DNA of 64,000 nt from Sneathiella sp. HT1-7 (GTDB taxonomy: Bacteria; Pseudomonadota; Alphaproteobacteria; Sneathiellales; Sneathiellaceae), in NCBI RefSeq assembly GCF_020731145.1, contig NZ_JAJFZN010000004.1, positions 1-64,000 on the forward strand. Direction: 5' to 3'. The translations under genes and the position numbers were made by a program. Below, in pieces: positions 44 to 9,392 of this stretch (the first letter of the stretch is position 1; each line of letters begins with the position of its first letter). The notes under the pieces are model-generated. The model worked only from the letters and a program-made list of their open reading frames with translations. It was not told the DNA's origin and ran no database searches.

Positions 44-123
<80 letters not shown>

Positions 124-128
124 AATAC

Positions 129-163
129 AACGGCTTAGCAGGAAACTGCCGAGCCGTTTTTTG
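129..163 (+). terminator. Rho-independent terminator after tRNA-fMet (island side)
   Basis: The arms AACGGCT (129-135) and AGCCGTT (152-158) enclose an inner stem GCAG/CTGC with a GAAA tetraloop. A T-run follows through 162. It lies inside the island, so the element brings its own terminator for the tRNA it interrupts. Confidence 0.8.
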
Positions 164-169
164 TTGACC

Positions 170-190
170 GGAAGCATAATGGAAGCATAA
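170..190. repeat. Left integrase arm-type repeat
   Basis: Two tandem copies of GGAAGCATAA lie at 170-179 and 181-190. The 18-mer GGAAGCATAATGGAAGCA (170-187) recurs exactly at 9018-9035, beside the integrase start. Matching short repeats just inside both ends of an integrated element are typical arm-type binding sites for its integrase or excisionase. That role is inferred. Confidence 0.6.
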
Positions 191-482
191 AAGTATTTTT
201 GTGCAATTTGATATCAAAATCTCCAATACGTTTTAAATATCTCAATGACCGTGGAAAAGGTTAAATTAATCGAAACTATTTTCTATTAATGATAGCGTCC
301 AAAAATAAGACCTGTTACCTTCCTTTGTATTGCTGATTGAAGTGAAATAGTATGCACGGTAATTTGATGGCATCGAGTAAGGGAAGTGAGCCACTGTCGA
401 ATTAAAATATCTAAATCACTTTATTTGGTATCCAAAAAACAAAAAAATCAGTAACCATTTGTTTGGGGAGAAAGGTGGAGCC

Positions 483-1460
483 ATGATAGCCTCAAAGCAT
501 CTGATAGCGCTGCTACGAAGCCATATCGATGGCGACAATGAGCAGTTCTTGTCTGTGGCTATGCAGGTTGCGGCTCATGAAGCGCGTCAGGGGCATGGTA
601 ATCTTGCGCAGCAACTCCGAGATTTAGTCGATGAGGCACGCTCACTTAAGCAAAGCCGGTCAAGCAGGCCTGTGCCTTTTGCCCAGCCCAAGGGCGATCT
701 TGCTGCACTCATTTCGGCCAGCTATTCGGAAACACGTTTGTCCAGTATGGTATTACCGACGGCGCTAGAACAGCGCCTAAAGCGTATAATTACAGAGCAG
801 CGGCAGCAACATAGACTCGTCGAGCACGGCCTGCACCCAAGACGGAAGATATTGCTTATTGGCCCGCCTGGATCAGGCAAGACGATGACGGCTGCGGCTC
901 TGGCAGGCGAGCTTACATTGCCACTTTTCACAGTTGTTTTCGACTCTCTAATCACCCGGTTTATGGGTGAAACAGCGTCCAAACTGAGGCTCGTTTTTGA
1001 CGCTATGCTTCAGACAAGGGGTGTGTATTTTTTCGACGAATTTGATGCAATCGGCGCCCGTAGAGCTGAACGCAATGACGTTGGAGAGATCCGGCGGGTG
1101 CTGAACTCATTTCTTCAGTTTTTGGAGAATGACAACAGCGAAAGTCTCATTATTGCCGCGACAAATCACCCTGAATTGCTTGATCCAGCCCTTTTCCGGC
1201 GGTTCGATGATGTCATCCACTACGATTTGCCTAACCCTTCCATTGCCTCAAGCATTTTGAAAGCACGTTTGTCAGGATTTGATACTAAAGGTATGCAGTG
1301 GAAGGATGTCGTAAAAGAAACCTCTGGGTTGAGTCAAGCCGAGGTTTCACGGGCCGCTGACGAGGCGGCAAAGCGGGCAATTCTCGCTGAACGTACTAAA
1401 GTTACGCGTGATGATCTATTGGGAGCAATAGCCGAACGCAAAGCGTCTACTGAACGGTAA
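483..1460 (+). CDS. ietA: AAA+ ATPase, IetA-like component of a two-gene defence system
   Basis: This is a 325-residue cytoplasmic AAA+ ATPase. Walker A GPPGSGKT is at about 127-134, Walker B FFDEFD at about 183-188, sensor-1 Asn in AATNHP near 228, and the arginine finger in FRRFDD near 239-240. The first 115 residues are helical and specific to this protein. I chose the ATG at 483, which is preceded by AAGGTGGAG, over an in-frame TTG at 459. The subtilase gene begins 15 bp after the stop, so the two are co-transcribed. In known anti-phage IetAS systems an AAA ATPase is paired with a subtilisin-like protease in this order. That the ATPase controls or feeds the protease is inference. The family call from domains and gene order is fairly secure, but the defence role is untested here. 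Confidence 0.85.
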   Translation: MIASKHLIALLRSHIDGDNEQFLSVAMQVAAHEARQGHGNLAQQLRDLVDEARSLKQSRSSRPVPFAQPKGDLAALISASYSETRLSSMVLPTALEQRLKRIITEQRQQHRLVEHGLHPRRKILLIGPPGSGKTMTAAALAGELTLPLFTVVFDSLITRFMGETASKLRLVFDAMLQTRGVYFFDEFDAIGARRAERNDVGEIRRVLNSFLQFLENDNSESLIIAATNHPELLDPALFRRFDDVIHYDLPNPSIASSILKARLSGFDTKGMQWKDVVKETSGLSQAEVSRAADEAAKRAILAERTKVTRDDLLGAIAERKASTER

Positions 1461-1475
1461 TTGGAGGCGCAACGT

Positions 1476-4019
1476 ATGGCAGGAGAAGATCAACGCCCAC
1501 TTCCACATATTTATTTACCCGCACATGGCGAGAGAGAAGATTTCACATCGCCACAAAGCGGTGGGGGCGGCGTAACAATCCCCCAGCGGAACCGTGAGCA
1601 ACACGCCCAGCGGCTTGATCAAATGCTTACAGTAGCTGTTGACGTGGCTCAGGAGCGGATCGTCAATCGTGATCTTGAAATCAGTGGCGGCACGCCGGGC
1701 TTCTATCTTGAATTTGCGCTCCCACAATCTCAGCAGTCTATGCTGGATAAGCTGGAAAATAAACGAGGAAGAGAGCACATCGAATTAGTGGCCGCACGGC
1801 CGTCCATCGATGATCCAAATCTCATCAAGGCAACTGTGTTTGTCCCCGAATCAAAGCGTGAGTACTATCTAAGCAAAGTTCGCGCTTATAGGGAAGAGGA
1901 TAATATCCGGTACCAGAAGGACGATGAGGGTAACTTCATACAAGATGAAGCTGGAAATCGCGTTGAAAAATCCCGCCGCCCCAAGAACGAAGACTTGGTT
2001 GCTTCATTGGAAACGGTGAGGATTGCAGAGGCGGAGTCACTTTACACGGATGATCTACAATTATTTCCGGCGGCGGGGCAGGAAGTCTGGTGGGAGGTAT
2101 GGCTAAGAAATGATGGCCGCCCGATTCTGGAACATGCTGCGGGTCAACTCGATCTGATGACAAAAGAGCATTCCGTGACCTTTCCCGAACGGGAGGTGGT
2201 CTTACTTTGCGCTGCCCCAGAATCAATTGGTCTGATCATTGCCAATACCGATGCGATAGCCGAGCTTCGAATGGCACGGGATACTCCGTCCTTCTTTATG
2301 GAGATGAACGGAGCAGAACAGATTGAGTGGTCACAAGAGCTTGCTGGTCGAATTGTTGCGCCGGGAGTAAATGCTCCTGCCGTATGCTTGCTCGATAGTG
2401 GAACCACGCGTCGTCATCCACTCATTACTCCCGCTCTTGCAGAGGAAGATCAGCAGGCTTGGAATGCTGACTGGAACGTTGAAGATGTTGGTGCTCAGTG
2501 GCTCGGGCACGGCACTCAGATGAGTGGCGTAGCACTATATGGTGACCTGATAGATGCGCTTGTGGCAAATGGGCCGATTGAACTTTCTCACCGACTCGAA
2601 TCCGTAAAAATTCTCCCTGATCATGGTGCCAATGATCCTGATCTATATGGCTATATTACGGCCGCTGCTGTGGGACGCACAGAAGTTCAGGCGCCTGAGC
2701 GGCCCCGAGCCTATTGTCTTGCTGTCACTAGCGTGGGCGATTATTGGCGTGGCAGACCGTCTTCATGGTCCGCTGCGTTGGATGACCTTGCATATGGCGA
2801 TGGAGAAGATCAGAGACTGATCGCAGTTTCCGCAGGTAATATTCGAAACTACTACCCGGCAGGAGAATACTTAGATCAGAATGATACCGCAGCTGTAGAG
2901 AATCCTGCTCAGGCATGGAATGCGCTTACTGTCGGTGCCGTCACAGAGAAGATCACGATTACAGACCCTGATTTCTTGGGATGGCAGGCAATGGCTCCTA
3001 CAGGAGACCTTTCACCCTCCAGCCGGACATCGGTAAGCTGGCATCACGATTGGCCCATCAAGCCCGACGTTGTATATGAAGGCGGCAATCATGGTGTCGA
3101 TCCGGCGACCGGTAACAGCGATCATATTGACGATTTGGCTCTACTAACGACATTTAACCGGCCCGAAGAGCGGGCGTTCACCGTAACCGGCGACACGAGC
3201 GCTGCTACTGCGCAAGTTGCCCATCTGGCTGCACAGGTTCTTTCCGGCCGACCAGAATTATGGCCAGAGACTGTCCGCGCATTGATTGTTCATTCTGCGG
3301 AATGGACTCCGGCAATGCTACGGCATTTACCGGCCCACCCGAACCAAGGTGATCAACGTCTTATCTTGCGCCGTTATGGTTATGGTGTGCCAAGCCTTGA
3401 TAGGGCGCAGCGCAGCTTCAACAGTGACGTGACACTGGTCGTAGAATCTGATTTGCAGCCTTACCTTCTTGAAGGGTCACGGACAAGCAGCTGCGATATG
3501 ATGCTTCATGATTTACCATGGCCAATCGACAAGCTCAACGAGTTAGGCGAAACACCAGTAGAGATGCGTGTCACGCTGAGCTATTTTGTAGAACCCAATC
3601 CGGGTGAGCGAGGCTGGACGAAACGGCATCGTTATGGTGGGCATGGCCTGCGCTTTTCTGTCAAGCGCCCGGAAGAGAGCATTGATCGATTCCGTTGGAG
3701 AGTTAATGCCGCTGCGCGTGAAGAAGATGAGCGCGTCGGCAGAGCTGGTAACGATGAGGGCTGGGTACTTGGCCCACGGCTTCGCGATAGAGGGTCGCTA
3801 CATTCTGATGTTTGGCGTGGTACGGCTGCTGATCTTGCTAACCGCCATGCTATTGGGATATTCCCTGTCGGAGGATGGTGGCGCGAGAAGCCAAGGTTAG
3901 ATCGAGCTAATCGCCGTGTACGATATGCTCTGGTTGTGAGTCTTCGAGCTAACGTGGATATCGATCTTTACACAGAGATTGCTAACGCTGTTGGTATTGA
4001 GGTCGATATAGATACGTAA
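1476..4019 (+). CDS. ietS: S8 subtilisin-like serine protease, IetS-like
   Basis: This 847-residue protein has no signal peptide, so it probably acts in the cytoplasm. The subtilase triad is complete: Asp about 307 (LLDSG), His about 345 (GHGTQMSG) and Ser about 575 (GDTSAATA). The oxyanion Asn is in SAGN near 455. About 300 residues precede the catalytic domain and about 200 follow it. Neither resembles a classical inhibitor I9 propeptide, and both could be sensing or substrate-recognition parts. The start is the ATG at 1476 with GGAGG nine bases upstream; an upstream TTG at 1461 abuts the ietA stop and overlaps that ribosome site. It follows the AAA ATPase directly, matching the IetAS arrangement. 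The trigger and substrate are unknown. Confidence 0.85.
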   Translation: MAGEDQRPLPHIYLPAHGEREDFTSPQSGGGGVTIPQRNREQHAQRLDQMLTVAVDVAQERIVNRDLEISGGTPGFYLEFALPQSQQSMLDKLENKRGREHIELVAARPSIDDPNLIKATVFVPESKREYYLSKVRAYREEDNIRYQKDDEGNFIQDEAGNRVEKSRRPKNEDLVASLETVRIAEAESLYTDDLQLFPAAGQEVWWEVWLRNDGRPILEHAAGQLDLMTKEHSVTFPEREVVLLCAAPESIGLIIANTDAIAELRMARDTPSFFMEMNGAEQIEWSQELAGRIVAPGVNAPAVCLLDSGTTRRHPLITPALAEEDQQAWNADWNVEDVGAQWLGHGTQMSGVALYGDLIDALVANGPIELSHRLESVKILPDHGANDPDLYGYITAAAVGRTEVQAPERPRAYCLAVTSVGDYWRGRPSSWSAALDDLAYGDGEDQRLIAVSAGNIRNYYPAGEYLDQNDTAAVENPAQAWNALTVGAVTEKITITDPDFLGWQAMAPTGDLSPSSRTSVSWHHDWPIKPDVVYEGGNHGVDPATGNSDHIDDLALLTTFNRPEERAFTVTGDTSAATAQVAHLAAQVLSGRPELWPETVRALIVHSAEWTPAMLRHLPAHPNQGDQRLILRRYGYGVPSLDRAQRSFNSDVTLVVESDLQPYLLEGSRTSSCDMMLHDLPWPIDKLNELGETPVEMRVTLSYFVEPNPGERGWTKRHRYGGHGLRFSVKRPEESIDRFRWRVNAAAREEDERVGRAGNDEGWVLGPRLRDRGSLHSDVWRGTAADLANRHAIGIFPVGGWWREKPRLDRANRRVRYALVVSLRANVDIDLYTEIANAVGIEVDIDT

Positions 4020-5525: not shown

Positions 5526-5762
5526 TCAAGACGCGGAAAATGCGGAGGTGTTGGAAATCAGCAAAGACTCGGACCACGCAACTAATTCCCTGCGGCGATA
5601 TCGAATGGAGCGGGAAGAGACTTTGACAAACTTCGGGCCGCCACCGCGCACCCGCCAATTTTGAAGAGCGCGGACGGTGTAACCTAGAAATTCTGCCGCT
5701 TGTTGCTCATTAATGAGCTGGTCAGGATCATATTTTATGTCTTGAGTATTGGTCGGCTGCAT
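5526..5762 (-). CDS. AlpA/MerR-type helix-turn-helix protein, probable excisionase/regulator
   Basis: This protein of about 78 residues carries a compact winged HTH: LINEQQAAEFLGYTVRALQNW followed by the wing, with KVSSRSIRYRRREL as the second recognition stretch. This 'helix-turn-helix domain' form is common in integrative elements as an excisionase or regulator of integrase and rep. I chose the ATG at 5762, with AAGGA eight bases upstream, over the ATG at 5777. It is transcribed toward the rep-like gene, 235 bp away, and may control both rep and excision. Residues after the HTH are non-conserved. Confidence 0.75.
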   Translation of the reverse strand: MQPTNTQDIKYDPDQLINEQQAAEFLGYTVRALQNWRVRGGGPKFVKVSSRSIRYRRRELVAWSESLLISNTSAFSAS

Positions 5763-5770
5763 CGGTGTTC

Positions 5771-5797
5771 CTTTCATCGTTAGTCATGTGATGAAAG
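5771..5797. promoter_or_regulatory. Inverted repeat at the alpA-like gene start
   Basis: Perfect arms CTTTCATC (5771-5778) and GATGAAAG (5790-5797) are separated by 11 bases, beginning 9 bp upstream of the alpA-like start codon and covering its ribosome-binding site. This is a plausible operator for autoregulation or a translation-blocking hairpin. Confidence 0.45.
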
Positions 5798-5877: not shown

Positions 5878-6570
5878 TTATTTGTGTTTCGCAATGAGCG
5901 GATTGACGATATTCGCCATTGTCTTATCGCCAAGACCACGTTCGCCAATTTCATTATCTGGGTAGTTGGCAAGGACCCATTGCCGGATAGCGGGATAGTT
6001 GGATTTCATAGGGCCGGAGAAATCAAGCAGCCCTTCCTTATAAAGCGCGTGAAAGGCCTCATTGATTTGATTTTGTCGGCTGGGCCGCCCGATGCTTTTT
6101 TCGGATTCTTGGCTGCTGGGCAGCATGTCCGGCGGCGCAATACGAACGCCAACAAAGGTTATTCCGTTTGCGGATACGGTTCCTTCATGCCAGTCTACCC
6201 AGTCTTCCCATGTATCAGGCGGGAGGAGTTTGGGAGAGCTTTCCGGCTGACGAGGTGCCCGAAAGCCAATCGTTTGAATTTTTCCGGATATTAGAAGTTT
6301 GATAAAATCTGCCTCCCAATCGTTAATTATCTCCGGCGGGGCTTTTGGATAATAGAGCTCTCTCGCTTCATAGATATACGCTTCCGGCAGAAGCTCCGCA
6401 GCTTCTTCCAAGATAGGCCATATATCCGAGCCAATAGCTTGATCGTACCGTGAACGCTCTAATTCAGCTTGGCACGCAGTTTTATATTTTTCTCTGAGCG
6501 TTTCGTCTACATCGGTGATAATAGCAGCCTCGATTGGAATAGCGGATTTCCAAGTATCCCAATTTGTCAT
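5878..6570 (-). CDS. Island protein of unknown function
   Basis: I do not recognise this 230-residue protein. It is soluble with no signal peptide. The N-terminal two thirds are acidic and rich in Trp, Glu and Pro. The C-terminal 70 residues form a distinct module beginning GRPSRQNQINEAFHALY and ending near GDKTMANIVNPLIAKH, which resembles the small DNA-binding tails seen in many alphaproteobacterial hypothetical proteins of prophages and islands. It is transcribed in the same direction as the alpA-like and rep-like genes. A role in element control rather than host metabolism is inferred from context only. Confidence 0.7.
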   Translation of the reverse strand: MTNWDTWKSAIPIEAAIITDVDETLREKYKTACQAELERSRYDQAIGSDIWPILEEAAELLPEAYIYEARELYYPKAPPEIINDWEADFIKLLISGKIQTIGFRAPRQPESSPKLLPPDTWEDWVDWHEGTVSANGITFVGVRIAPPDMLPSSQESEKSIGRPSRQNQINEAFHALYKEGLLDFSGPMKSNYPAIRQWVLANYPDNEIGERGLGDKTMANIVNPLIAKHK

Positions 6571-6895: not shown

Positions 6896-7447
6896 ATGTC
6901 TTTCAAACTTCTGATAGTTGCGGGATTAGTCGGGTTGCTGGTCGCCTGCAATGGTGCAAACACGGATACAGCAGTGAAGGATGAGTCGCCGATGAAGGCG
7001 ACGCTTTCAAACTACTTCTATCATCAACTGATGGCAGCCGCAGGTGTGGGAAAAGTAAGTGACAAATCTTATAATGCGGAGATCAAAATCGGCGACACTA
7101 ACCCTTACAATAATGGAAGCTTAATTCATCAGTACAAGGCGATGGCCATGTGCGTGAGCTGGGATGTCAATACATCGTCGGACAAAAAGACGACGGAAAA
7201 CGCCGAAACAATAGTAGAAACGAAAACTACTAATTTCCAAATCTTTGCGAGGCCAAAAGCGGTTGAGATTAGCAACAGTGATGATTGGAACGTCGCCGGT
7301 TTTAATTCGTTACGAAATTGCGAGCAAAAGAAATTGCAGAAAGAACTGAACTGTAATTGTCAACTGGTAGATCGAGACGATACTAATGTTCTCGAAATTC
7401 CTGATGATATTTTGCAGTTCGTTCAACCCAATAATATTTCCCAGTGA
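6896..7447 (+). CDS. Putative lipoprotein of unknown function
   Basis: This 183-residue protein has a classical lipoprotein signal: a short positive N-end, the hydrophobic run LLIVAGLVGLLVA, and the lipobox LVAC with Cys about 18. The mature part is hydrophilic and contains several cysteines (MCVSW, RNCEQKK, LNCNC). It should be anchored in a membrane facing the periplasm. The ATG at 6896 has GAAAGGT upstream. The gene is A+T-rich and paired with the small membrane protein 45 bp downstream, inside the island. I know no family for it. Envelope modification such as exclusion or immunity is possible but unsupported. Confidence 0.7.
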   Translation: MSFKLLIVAGLVGLLVACNGANTDTAVKDESPMKATLSNYFYHQLMAAAGVGKVSDKSYNAEIKIGDTNPYNNGSLIHQYKAMAMCVSWDVNTSSDKKTTENAETIVETKTTNFQIFARPKAVEISNSDDWNVAGFNSLRNCEQKKLQKELNCNCQLVDRDDTNVLEIPDDILQFVQPNNISQ

Positions 7448-7492: not shown

Positions 7493-7816
7493 ATGAAAAG
7501 TTTTTTGATCATCTACAACGTGCTTTTGGTGATGTCGTTATTGCTATGGCCCATGCTTCTGATTGGGTCGGTATTTGCGTTTGATGCCCCCGGCTCAGAA
7601 AATTCGCTTTTAACGAAGATGTTTGTTTTCTCTATTGCGGTGTATCCAGTGGCGGCTCTGGTTGGCGGGATAGGGTTTTGGATAGCGCTCAAGAAAAATA
7701 GCCTATCGAGTATGAAGTCATTTTCTTGTATTTCGGCAATTTCTCCAATTTTCATTGTTTGTTCTATCGCTCTGTTACAAGTCGTTTGCGGGGGCGAATT
7801 CAGCTGTAGAATTTAG
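7493..7816 (+). CDS. Small integral membrane protein
   Basis: This 107-residue protein has three predicted membrane segments: about 3-30 (rich in Leu and Val), about 42-66 (VFSIAVYPVAALVGGIGFWIAL) and about 78-98 (SPIFIVCSIALLQVV). The ATG at 7493 is preceded by GAGGC. It follows the lipoprotein gene by 45 bp and probably shares its transcript. It ends 18 bp before the convergent integrase stop. No family is recognised. It is an island cargo gene of unknown function. Confidence 0.65.
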   Translation: MKSFLIIYNVLLVMSLLLWPMLLIGSVFAFDAPGSENSLLTKMFVFSIAVYPVAALVGGIGFWIALKKNSLSSMKSFSCISAISPIFIVCSIALLQVVCGGEFSCRI

Positions 7817-7834: not shown

Positions 7835-8995
7835 CTATATGCTTGATCCTTTCAACAGCCTCGCCAATTCACTCGATACGCGCTCGGCGGCGTTTTGCAT
7901 GGGATCGTCGGCAAGGTGCGCATAGCGGGCGGTTGTCTGCACCTGACTGTGCCCCAGCAGCTTGCCGATCATGGGAAGGCTCTCGCCCGATCCGACGGCG
8001 ATGGAGGCGAAGGAATGCCGGAGATCATGAAGGCGCACATCTTTGAGATTGGCCGCCTTTCTTATCCGCCGCCATGGTTTCTGCATATCCGTGATATGGG
8101 AACCGGGGAGTTTTCCGGTAATGACGTAGGGGTTATCCTCGATACGTTCGACATTTGCGAGAACCTCCAACGCCGCCGGGCCGAGATAAATCCGTTTCGG
8201 GCCCGTCTTTGAATCCGGCAGATACGCCGAATTGCCTTTTATGAAGTCCCATTTGAGGGTTTGTATCTCTCCAAGGCGGCAGCCGGTCAGGATCAAAAGC
8301 CGGATACAATTAATTGCCGATCGTGATTCAATGCCTTCCGCTTCCAGATCGGCAAGTGTCTGGCCAAGGCGGGAAAGCTCCTCACCGCTCAAATACCGCT
8401 CTCGCTTCTTCTCCTCATATTTTTTGACATGACGGCAGGGATTGGTTCCCTCGGGGCGAAGGCCCCAGACTTCCGCCTGATTGAACATGACCGAAAGAAC
8501 GCCCAAGGTCCGGTTCGCCTGATAGGGTTTGTCCCGGTGCTTGTGATGCAGATCGGCGATATCGCTTCGCTGCACTTCCTCCACCTGTACCGTTCCAAAG
8601 GCAGGCTTGATAAAAAGGTCCATGCAGCGGCGATATTCCTTCGCTGTGCTGTCCCGGCAATGAGAGGGGACATAATCCGACATAAACCTCTCGCAAAGTT
8701 CCGACACAATAGCCGCCCCGCGCTTGCGCTTGGCTTCTTCCGCAGGGTTTGCCCCATGGGCAACGCCTCCCAGCAGCTCACGGGCCTTGTCCTTGGCTTT
8801 TTCGGCGGTTACCGTCCCGTATCGCCCCAGCCCTTTCCGCCGGGTGCGCCCGCCGCCGTCCCGGTATTGAATGAGGAATGTCTTGCGCCCGGACGGCAGC
8901 ACCCGCAAGCCATAGCCGGGCAGGGTTTCATCCCAGACAAAGTAGTCTTTCTCTTTCACTAAAAGGCCGTCAATGTTACGCTTGTTCAATCTCAT
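7835..8995 (-). CDS. Tyrosine recombinase/integrase of the island
   Basis: This P4-like integrase of about 386 residues has an N-terminal arm-binding domain (DUF4102-like, around LPGYGLRVLPSGRKTFLIQYR), a central SAM-like core-binding domain, and a C-terminal catalytic domain. The active-site residues are visible: Arg in TGCRLGEI, His and Arg in HDLRHSFAS, His in LGHSQ, and the Tyr nucleophile in TTARYAHL. It catalyses integration into and excision from tRNA-fMet. An in-frame ATG lies at 9007, but the nearest GAGGA abuts it. The ATG at 8995 has a better-spaced GGA, so I prefer it. The gene lies 170 bp inside attR, reading inward. Confidence 0.95.
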   Translation of the reverse strand: MRLNKRNIDGLLVKEKDYFVWDETLPGYGLRVLPSGRKTFLIQYRDGGGRTRRKGLGRYGTVTAEKAKDKARELLGGVAHGANPAEEAKRKRGAAIVSELCERFMSDYVPSHCRDSTAKEYRRCMDLFIKPAFGTVQVEEVQRSDIADLHHKHRDKPYQANRTLGVLSVMFNQAEVWGLRPEGTNPCRHVKKYEEKKRERYLSGEELSRLGQTLADLEAEGIESRSAINCIRLLILTGCRLGEIQTLKWDFIKGNSAYLPDSKTGPKRIYLGPAALEVLANVERIEDNPYVITGKLPGSHITDMQKPWRRIRKAANLKDVRLHDLRHSFASIAVGSGESLPMIGKLLGHSQVQTTARYAHLADDPMQNAAERVSSELARLLKGSSI

Positions 8996-9017
8996 ATTCG
9001 CTTCCATTCCTCAATCT

Positions 9018-9035
9018 GGAAGCATAATGGAAGCA
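9018..9035. repeat. Right integrase arm-type repeat
   Basis: GGAAGCATAATGGAAGCA is an exact copy of 170-187. An inverted partial copy (AATGGAAGCG on the minus strand, 8999-9008) overlaps the integrase translation start, so binding here could also repress int. Confidence 0.6.
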
Positions 9036-9165: not shown

Positions 9166-9213
9166 CTCATAACCTGAAGGTCGTAGGTTCAAATCCTACC
9201 CCCGCAACCAAAT
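9166..9213. repeat. attR: 48-bp direct repeat of tRNA-fMet 3' end
   Basis: This is an exact copy of 76-123 with no 5' tRNA half before it. It marks the right boundary of the island. A minus-strand reading frame through it yields the familiar GVGFEPTTFRL shadow peptide, not a gene. Confidence 0.93.
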
Positions 9214-9214
9214 T

Positions 9215-9243
9215 AAAAAGGGTCCCTTCAGGGACCCTTTTTT
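9215..9243 (+). terminator. Strong terminator after attR
   Basis: AAAAAGGGTCCC-TTCA-GGGACCCTTTTTTT is a perfect stem followed by T's. It is probably the original tRNA-fMet terminator, now separated from the tRNA by the island. Confidence 0.85.
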
Positions 9244-9392
9244 GTTCGGTGGCAAGGGCCAGGATGAAAAGCTTAGGGAAGTCCATCAAGGCTTTCCGAG
9301 GTTCGCGGCCAGCGCGAAGCGCGCCAGTCGCACGCATCACGGCGAAGCCGCGAGGACGCAAAAGCCGACTTCCGTAACCAATATTATTTTAG

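Follow-up and report, generated by a model that had tools for sequence, protein, structure and literature searches.

An intact IetAS gene pair of the pTiC58 branch as cargo of a tRNA-fMet island in Sneathiella, with a putative toxin-antitoxin and defence role

At one end of an integrated island in Sneathiella sp. HT1-7, an AAA ATPase gene lies directly ahead of a gene for a subtilisin-like protease. What is this pair, and does it serve phage defence, the stability of the element that carries it, or both? We examined the question in a stretch of 64,000 nucleotides (contig NZ_JAJFZN010000004.1, referred to here as the window), and the features that bear on it are collected in Table 1.

Table 1 Features of the ietAS island in the window.
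Feature	Position	Strand	Description
tRNA-fMet (CAT)	44..120	+	integration target; ARAGORN
attL core	76..123	+	48 bp, perfect direct repeat of 9166-9213
Hairpin and T-run	130..162	+	island-supplied, behind tRNA; read in sequence
18-bp repeat GGAAGCATAATGGAAGCA	170..187 and 9018..9035	+	perfect copies just inside both island ends
ietA	483..1460	+	ATG 483, stop 1458-1460; 325-aa classical AAA ATPase, putative antitoxin/regulator
ietS	1476..4019	+	ATG 1476, stop 4017-4019; 847-aa predicted cytoplasmic subtilase, putative toxin/effector
IetS residues 66-290	1671..2345	+	two beta-alpha-beta-beta-alpha-beta units; AlphaFold secondary structure
IetS residues 647-847	3414..4016	+	beta-rich C-terminal domain, KP-43/SubHal-like
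Rep-like protein, 382 aa	4142..5290	-	distantly like Rep_trans replication initiators (alignment)
HTH_17 protein, excisionase-like	5526..5777	-	Pfam 1.6e-7; phrog_66 2.6e-7
230-aa island backbone protein	5878..6570	-	homologues in L030, L032
183-aa accessory ORF	6896..7447	+	lipoprotein-like N-terminus; no family match (PADLOC, Pfam, NCBIfam, phrog)
107-aa hydrophobic accessory ORF	7493..7816	+	no family match (PADLOC, Pfam, NCBIfam, phrog)
Tyrosine integrase	7835..9007	-	Pfam; beside right att repeat
attR core	9166..9213	+	48 bp, perfect direct repeat of 76-123

The initial annotation had described an intact AAA+ ATPase followed 15 bp later by an intact subtilase, and the reading frames agree with it: both are uninterrupted, the gap spans 1461-1475, and a ribosome-binding-like sequence precedes each gene, with GGAGG upstream of ietS. 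Promoter and terminator scans gave no signal above shuffled sequences. Pfam assigns IetA to AAA and IetS to Peptidase_S8 (E=4e-60). A comparison with IetA and IetS profiles, which had also been proposed, yields a PADLOC match for both proteins, IetA with PDLC02196 (E=2.8e-75, residues 4-322 of 325) and IetS with PDLC02198 (E=2e-37, residues 290-839); the pTiC58 proteins, run as positive control, reach 2.6e-71 and 4.8e-25, respectively. On the NCBIfam anti-phage equivalogs NF042959 (IteA) and NF042956 (IteS), the window pair scores 209.7 against a cut-off of 510 and 41.3 against a cut-off of 900. The pTiC58 pair also falls below these cut-offs (198.8 and 39.9), and its proteins score slightly lower than those of the window on both the PADLOC and the NCBIfam models. 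Since the name-giving pair fails as well, the miss excludes the narrow equivalog and not membership in IetAS; judged by these scores, the branch credited by NCBI with anti-phage function is a different one from that of the window. The earlier equation of the pair with anti-phage IetAS thus stands for the profiles and the layout, but its anti-phage part is weakened, as both proteins lie far under the NCBIfam cut-offs and the nearest characterised relative is the plasmid-stability toxin-antitoxin module of pTiC58.

The homologue set covered 35 genome contigs, from which 34 IetS and 32 IetA sequences were compared. In 43 of the 44 loci with both genes, IetA comes immediately ahead of IetS, and the IetA and IetS trees are concordant (mirror-tree r=0.83, null maximum 0.30). 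In both trees the window pair groups first with a copy from Parvularculaceae, whose IetS is 85% identical, then with L041, Nitratireductor, and then with pTiC58. Against the nearest relative dN is 0.08 while dS is at least 0.9 or saturated, which indicates that ietA and ietS are under purifying selection; these rates, together with the PADLOC and Pfam E values, argue against a chance resemblance. The window pair is therefore a real, intact IetAS of the pTiC58 branch, of a kind already known and in a useful context. In a tblastn search of plasmids, the IetS of pTiC58 (Agrobacterium) is 59% identical to that of the window over its full length and adjoins an ATPase gene; we take this match to be the published IetS because it is the sole IetS-like place in that plasmid record. 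Conjugative plasmids often carry close relatives of IetS; they account for 339 of 488 plasmid records. One Rhizobium plasmid (NZ_CP022669.1) has, about 2 kb away from its IetAS, another S8 peptidase, which forms a pair with an MBL-fold protein.

The setting of the pair was confirmed as well. It had been placed as cargo at the attL end of an element integrated in tRNA-fMet, and the perfect 48-bp repeats, the tyrosine integrase and an unoccupied copy of the site on contig C4 of HT1-7, whose right flank is identical to window positions 9214-9253, delimit an island of 9.1 kb with ietAS at that end. The tRNA-Met (CAT) is of the initiator type, its C1:A72 mismatch being read directly. The window starts at contig base 1, 43 bp before the tRNA, and the left host flank lies outside it; in a complete relative (L104) the order is 23S-5S-tRNA, so that there the tRNA ends the rrn operon. 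Integration has displaced the native tRNA terminator to after position 9213, and the hairpin supplied by the island probably stands in for it. The 18-bp repeats just inside both ends are possible integrase arm sites. This repeat itself contains a 7-bp repeat. Three gammaproteobacterial loci (L051, L053, L058) carry a different IetAS branch about 200-350 bp behind a tRNA-Met, which suggests that sites of this kind have been used repeatedly. Around other IetAS loci, a search through tRNA 3'-end repeats found no second att site inside the stretches examined.

Five other genomes of the genus have integrases 91-96% identical to that of the island, and so does contig C8 of HT1-7. Islands with visible ends measure 8.6-11 kb, lie at tRNA-fMet and have the integrase, HTH and Rep-like genes in common, and the family consists of an integrase, an excisionase-like HTH protein, a Rep and one variable cargo slot. 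The HT1-7 genome alone holds three members, with IetAS, R-M-like and Dsr1-like cargo. The R-M-like island on contig C8, at another rrn-linked tRNA-fMet, encodes an Eco57I-like methylase, an N6/N4 methylase and a PLD-domain protein (L027 360-4563). The third, on contig C5 (L088 4920-14244), lies at tRNA-Lys between 49-bp att repeats 9,276 bp apart and carries a split Dsr1-like system, in which a SIR2-like 310-aa protein and a 929-aa partner, encoded by separate genes, match the two halves of the Dsr1 profile (E 7.8e-61 and 1.7e-120). Elsewhere, one island (L029 265-5391) holds a Tmn-like (YobI ATPase) gene (E 1.7e-87) and, reading in the other direction, a gene for a trypsin-like protease, and three (L028, L030, L032) hold metal-handling or metal-resistance genes. 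Among more distant islands, L091 and L092 carry type IIG R-M-like genes, and L090 has weak PD-T4-5-like matches. The ten islands thus carry IetAS, Dsr1-like, Tmn, three R-M-like systems and one weak defence match versus three sets of metal-resistance genes, a proportion that is indicative, as the sample is small and was drawn by similarity to the window island. The three metal-resistance siblings show that defence is not the only use of the slot.

The island Rep connects this family to tailless phages. The island Rep itself had no match in the phage collection; members of its family hit PF02486 with E values of 0.0016 and 0.016, which fall short of the cut-off. The same family is found in two alphaproteobacterial prophage loci of corticovirus-like type, in genomes G034 (L089 7489-11353) and G119 (L112 3965-7983). 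In both loci the gene order is Rep, packaging ATPase and double-jelly-roll capsid. Dif-like repeats of 18 bp, separated by 9.9 kb, flank L089. Homologues of the L089 capsid or packaging-ATPase genes are missing from all ten islands with Int, HTH and Rep; this screen concerns the L089-type capsid, and other capsid types were screened in some islands. Nor was a double-jelly-roll capsid gene found in the HT1-7 genome itself, so that no resident helper is seen. Gene content hints that the islands, which are possibly capsid-less, share an origin with corticovirus-like phages or are satellites of them. A bolder version, which we hold to be doubtful, is that the islands are an undescribed family of capsid-less, tRNA-integrating satellites of 8-11 kb that have the replication initiator in common with corticovirus-like phages, and whose single swappable slot, often anti-phage (IetAS, Dsr1-like, Tmn, R-M), would protect host and helper niche. 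If confirmed, the island family and its Rep link would extend the known satellite-helper relationships to helpers of corticovirus-like type.

What the two proteins may do was approached through their sequences and AlphaFold models. The catalytic triad of IetS, D307 (2394-2396), H345 (2508-2510) and S575 (3198-3200), and the oxyanion residue N455 are invariant in 34 relatives; the numbering of Ser575 is that of the initial annotation, counted from the ATG at 1476. The model (pLDDT 86, pTM 0.72) comprises an N-terminal part, a subtilisin domain and a beta-rich C-terminal domain. By inspection, the protein has no signal-like hydrophobic stretch at its start, in agreement with the description of a protease lacking a secretion signal.

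The extensions flanking the catalytic fold had been called unexplained, a view that the models do not support. At the C-terminus, KP-43 (1wmd) aligns with the IetS model over 380 residues (VIA-align Z 26.1, rmsd 3.1, model 297..823) and SubHal over 374 residues (Z 26), likewise reaching residue 823, whereas plain subtilisins align over about 245 residues and end near 646; the domain resembles a jelly roll of the KP-43 type that packs against the S8 domain. When solved structures were searched with the IetS sequence, no match appeared at E 0.001. At the N-terminus, the model contains two ferredoxin-like units (residues 75-146 and 204-266), and the second occupies the position of an I9-type propeptide, ahead of the catalytic domain. 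The claim that the protease has no propeptide is therefore doubtful: Pfam gives no Inhibitor_I9 or N-terminal domain match in any of the 34 IetS members, even at E 1, but with a ferredoxin-like unit in the propeptide position the absence is unproven. Foldseek ranks the pro-subtilase ProN-Tk-SP as the best match for IetS; the superposition is poor with a large overall rmsd, and a whole-model comparison of this kind probes the N-terminal part weakly.

The ATPase motifs of IetA are a Walker A, a Walker B with D185/E186, the sensor residue N228 and the Arg fingers R239/R240, and the Walker A glycines and lysine as well as the other residues named are invariant across 32 IetA sequences. In its model (pLDDT 84), an N-terminal three-helix bundle is followed by a classical AAA module.

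The reading that we consider probable is that IetAS is a cargo in which the toxic protease IetS is held by IetA, its release bringing about abortive phage defence and stabilisation of the element. IetS would be a cytoplasmic serine protease, toxic when free; IetA would bind IetS and hold it inactive as an ATP-dependent AAA ring, probably a hexamer. Control would be lost when infection disturbs IetA or when the island is lost, and the freed protease would then cut essential cell proteins, growth would stop, and the outcome may be abortive defence with the element also stabilised. We favour restraint of IetS by IetA because three homologous systems have a protease toxin and an ATPase antitoxin, namely pTiC58 ietAS and SGI1 sgiAT (PMC5006074) and Mycoplasma TA132/133 (PMC8562856). 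The earlier proposal that control falls to the ATPase fits these published data on homologues. The phage defence of ietAS is described as real and its mechanism as unknown (PMC11878078, PMC9958689), and a review names ietAS among the systems escaped through mutations in functional phage proteins (PMC10286901); our literature search found no paper on the IetAS mechanism. For the window pair, toxin-antitoxin activity appears better supported than phage defence, since the closest functionally named relative is the plasmid-stability module of pTiC58; defence would follow from diverged relatives and from the context. We count in favour of restraint and release that sibling islands bear other defence systems, and against it the metal-resistance siblings, a plasmid-rich distribution that fits stability equally well, the missed NCBIfam cut-offs, and the finding that sgiAT, when expressed from its native promoter, did not cause post-segregational killing (PMC5006074).

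It is also possible, if rather unlikely, that IetAS mainly acts as an addiction module, keeping the island stable and competing replicons out, with any effect on phages incidental. The pTiC58 and sgiAT pairs are described as stability modules (PMC5006074), the plasmid records noted above are largely conjugative, and an excised island that could be lost is plausible because an integrase and a Rep-like gene are present. However, the excised form is putative, and the sister slots hold Tmn, R-M, Dsr1-like or metal-resistance genes and not usually toxin-antitoxin pairs.

We consider it improbable that the pair forms an ATP-dependent protease of two components and follows no toxin-antitoxin logic; in such a machine, IetA would unfold proteins of phage or foreign origin and pass them on to IetS. 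IetA does resemble the PAN and FtsH motors: the AAA domain of its predicted model fits PAN, FtsH and Vps4 with Z of 23-25 (25.4 for the PAN AAA domain), and the hydrophobic pore-loop motif (F/L/Y)(F/L/M)G is kept in the alignment. Nevertheless, the homologous protease is toxic alone and the ATPase relieves the toxicity (PMC5006074, PMC8562856), so the ATPase is not required for the activity of IetS-type proteases. Neither subtilases nor AAA ATPases are a rare family, but that an unrelated ATPase stands beside an ordinary exported housekeeping subtilase is hardly credible given the strict pairing and co-evolution, the specific IetA/IetS profile matches and the lack of a signal-like N-terminus.

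The locus links the founding plasmid-stability branch of IetAS to a chromosomal island whose siblings bear recognised defence systems. A single gene pair can therefore be used to probe whether IetAS is selected for addiction, for phage defence or for both.

Among known systems, tailless Vibrio prophages with variable defence loci have already been described, and such PM2-like prophages (PMC11630473) resemble the island in a size of about 10 kb and in variable cargo, the Rep family lying beside double-jelly-roll capsid genes in two prophages; they use dif/Xer and carry capsid and packaging-ATPase genes, while the islands have a tRNA integrase and, among the ten, no homologue of those genes. The systems defined by PADLOC as ietAS and by NCBIfam as IteA-IteS share the layout of the window pair, which matches both PADLOC profiles but misses the NCBIfam equivalog cut-offs by far. 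In sgiAT of Salmonella Genomic Island 1, an antitoxin ATPase likewise precedes a subtilase toxin on an integrative island; sgiAT belongs to a more diverged branch, with 36% toxin and 50% antitoxin identity to the pTiC58 proteins (PMC5006074), and its element is mobilisable and much larger than the window island. The closest counterpart is pTiC58 ietAS (Yamamoto 2009), the founding IetAS and a plasmid-stability toxin/antitoxin module as cited in PMC5006074: gene order, short spacing, both folds, full-length IetS identity (59%) and clade are those of the window pair, but pTiC58 is a conjugative repABC plasmid, whereas the window pair resides on a chromosomal tRNA-fMet island.
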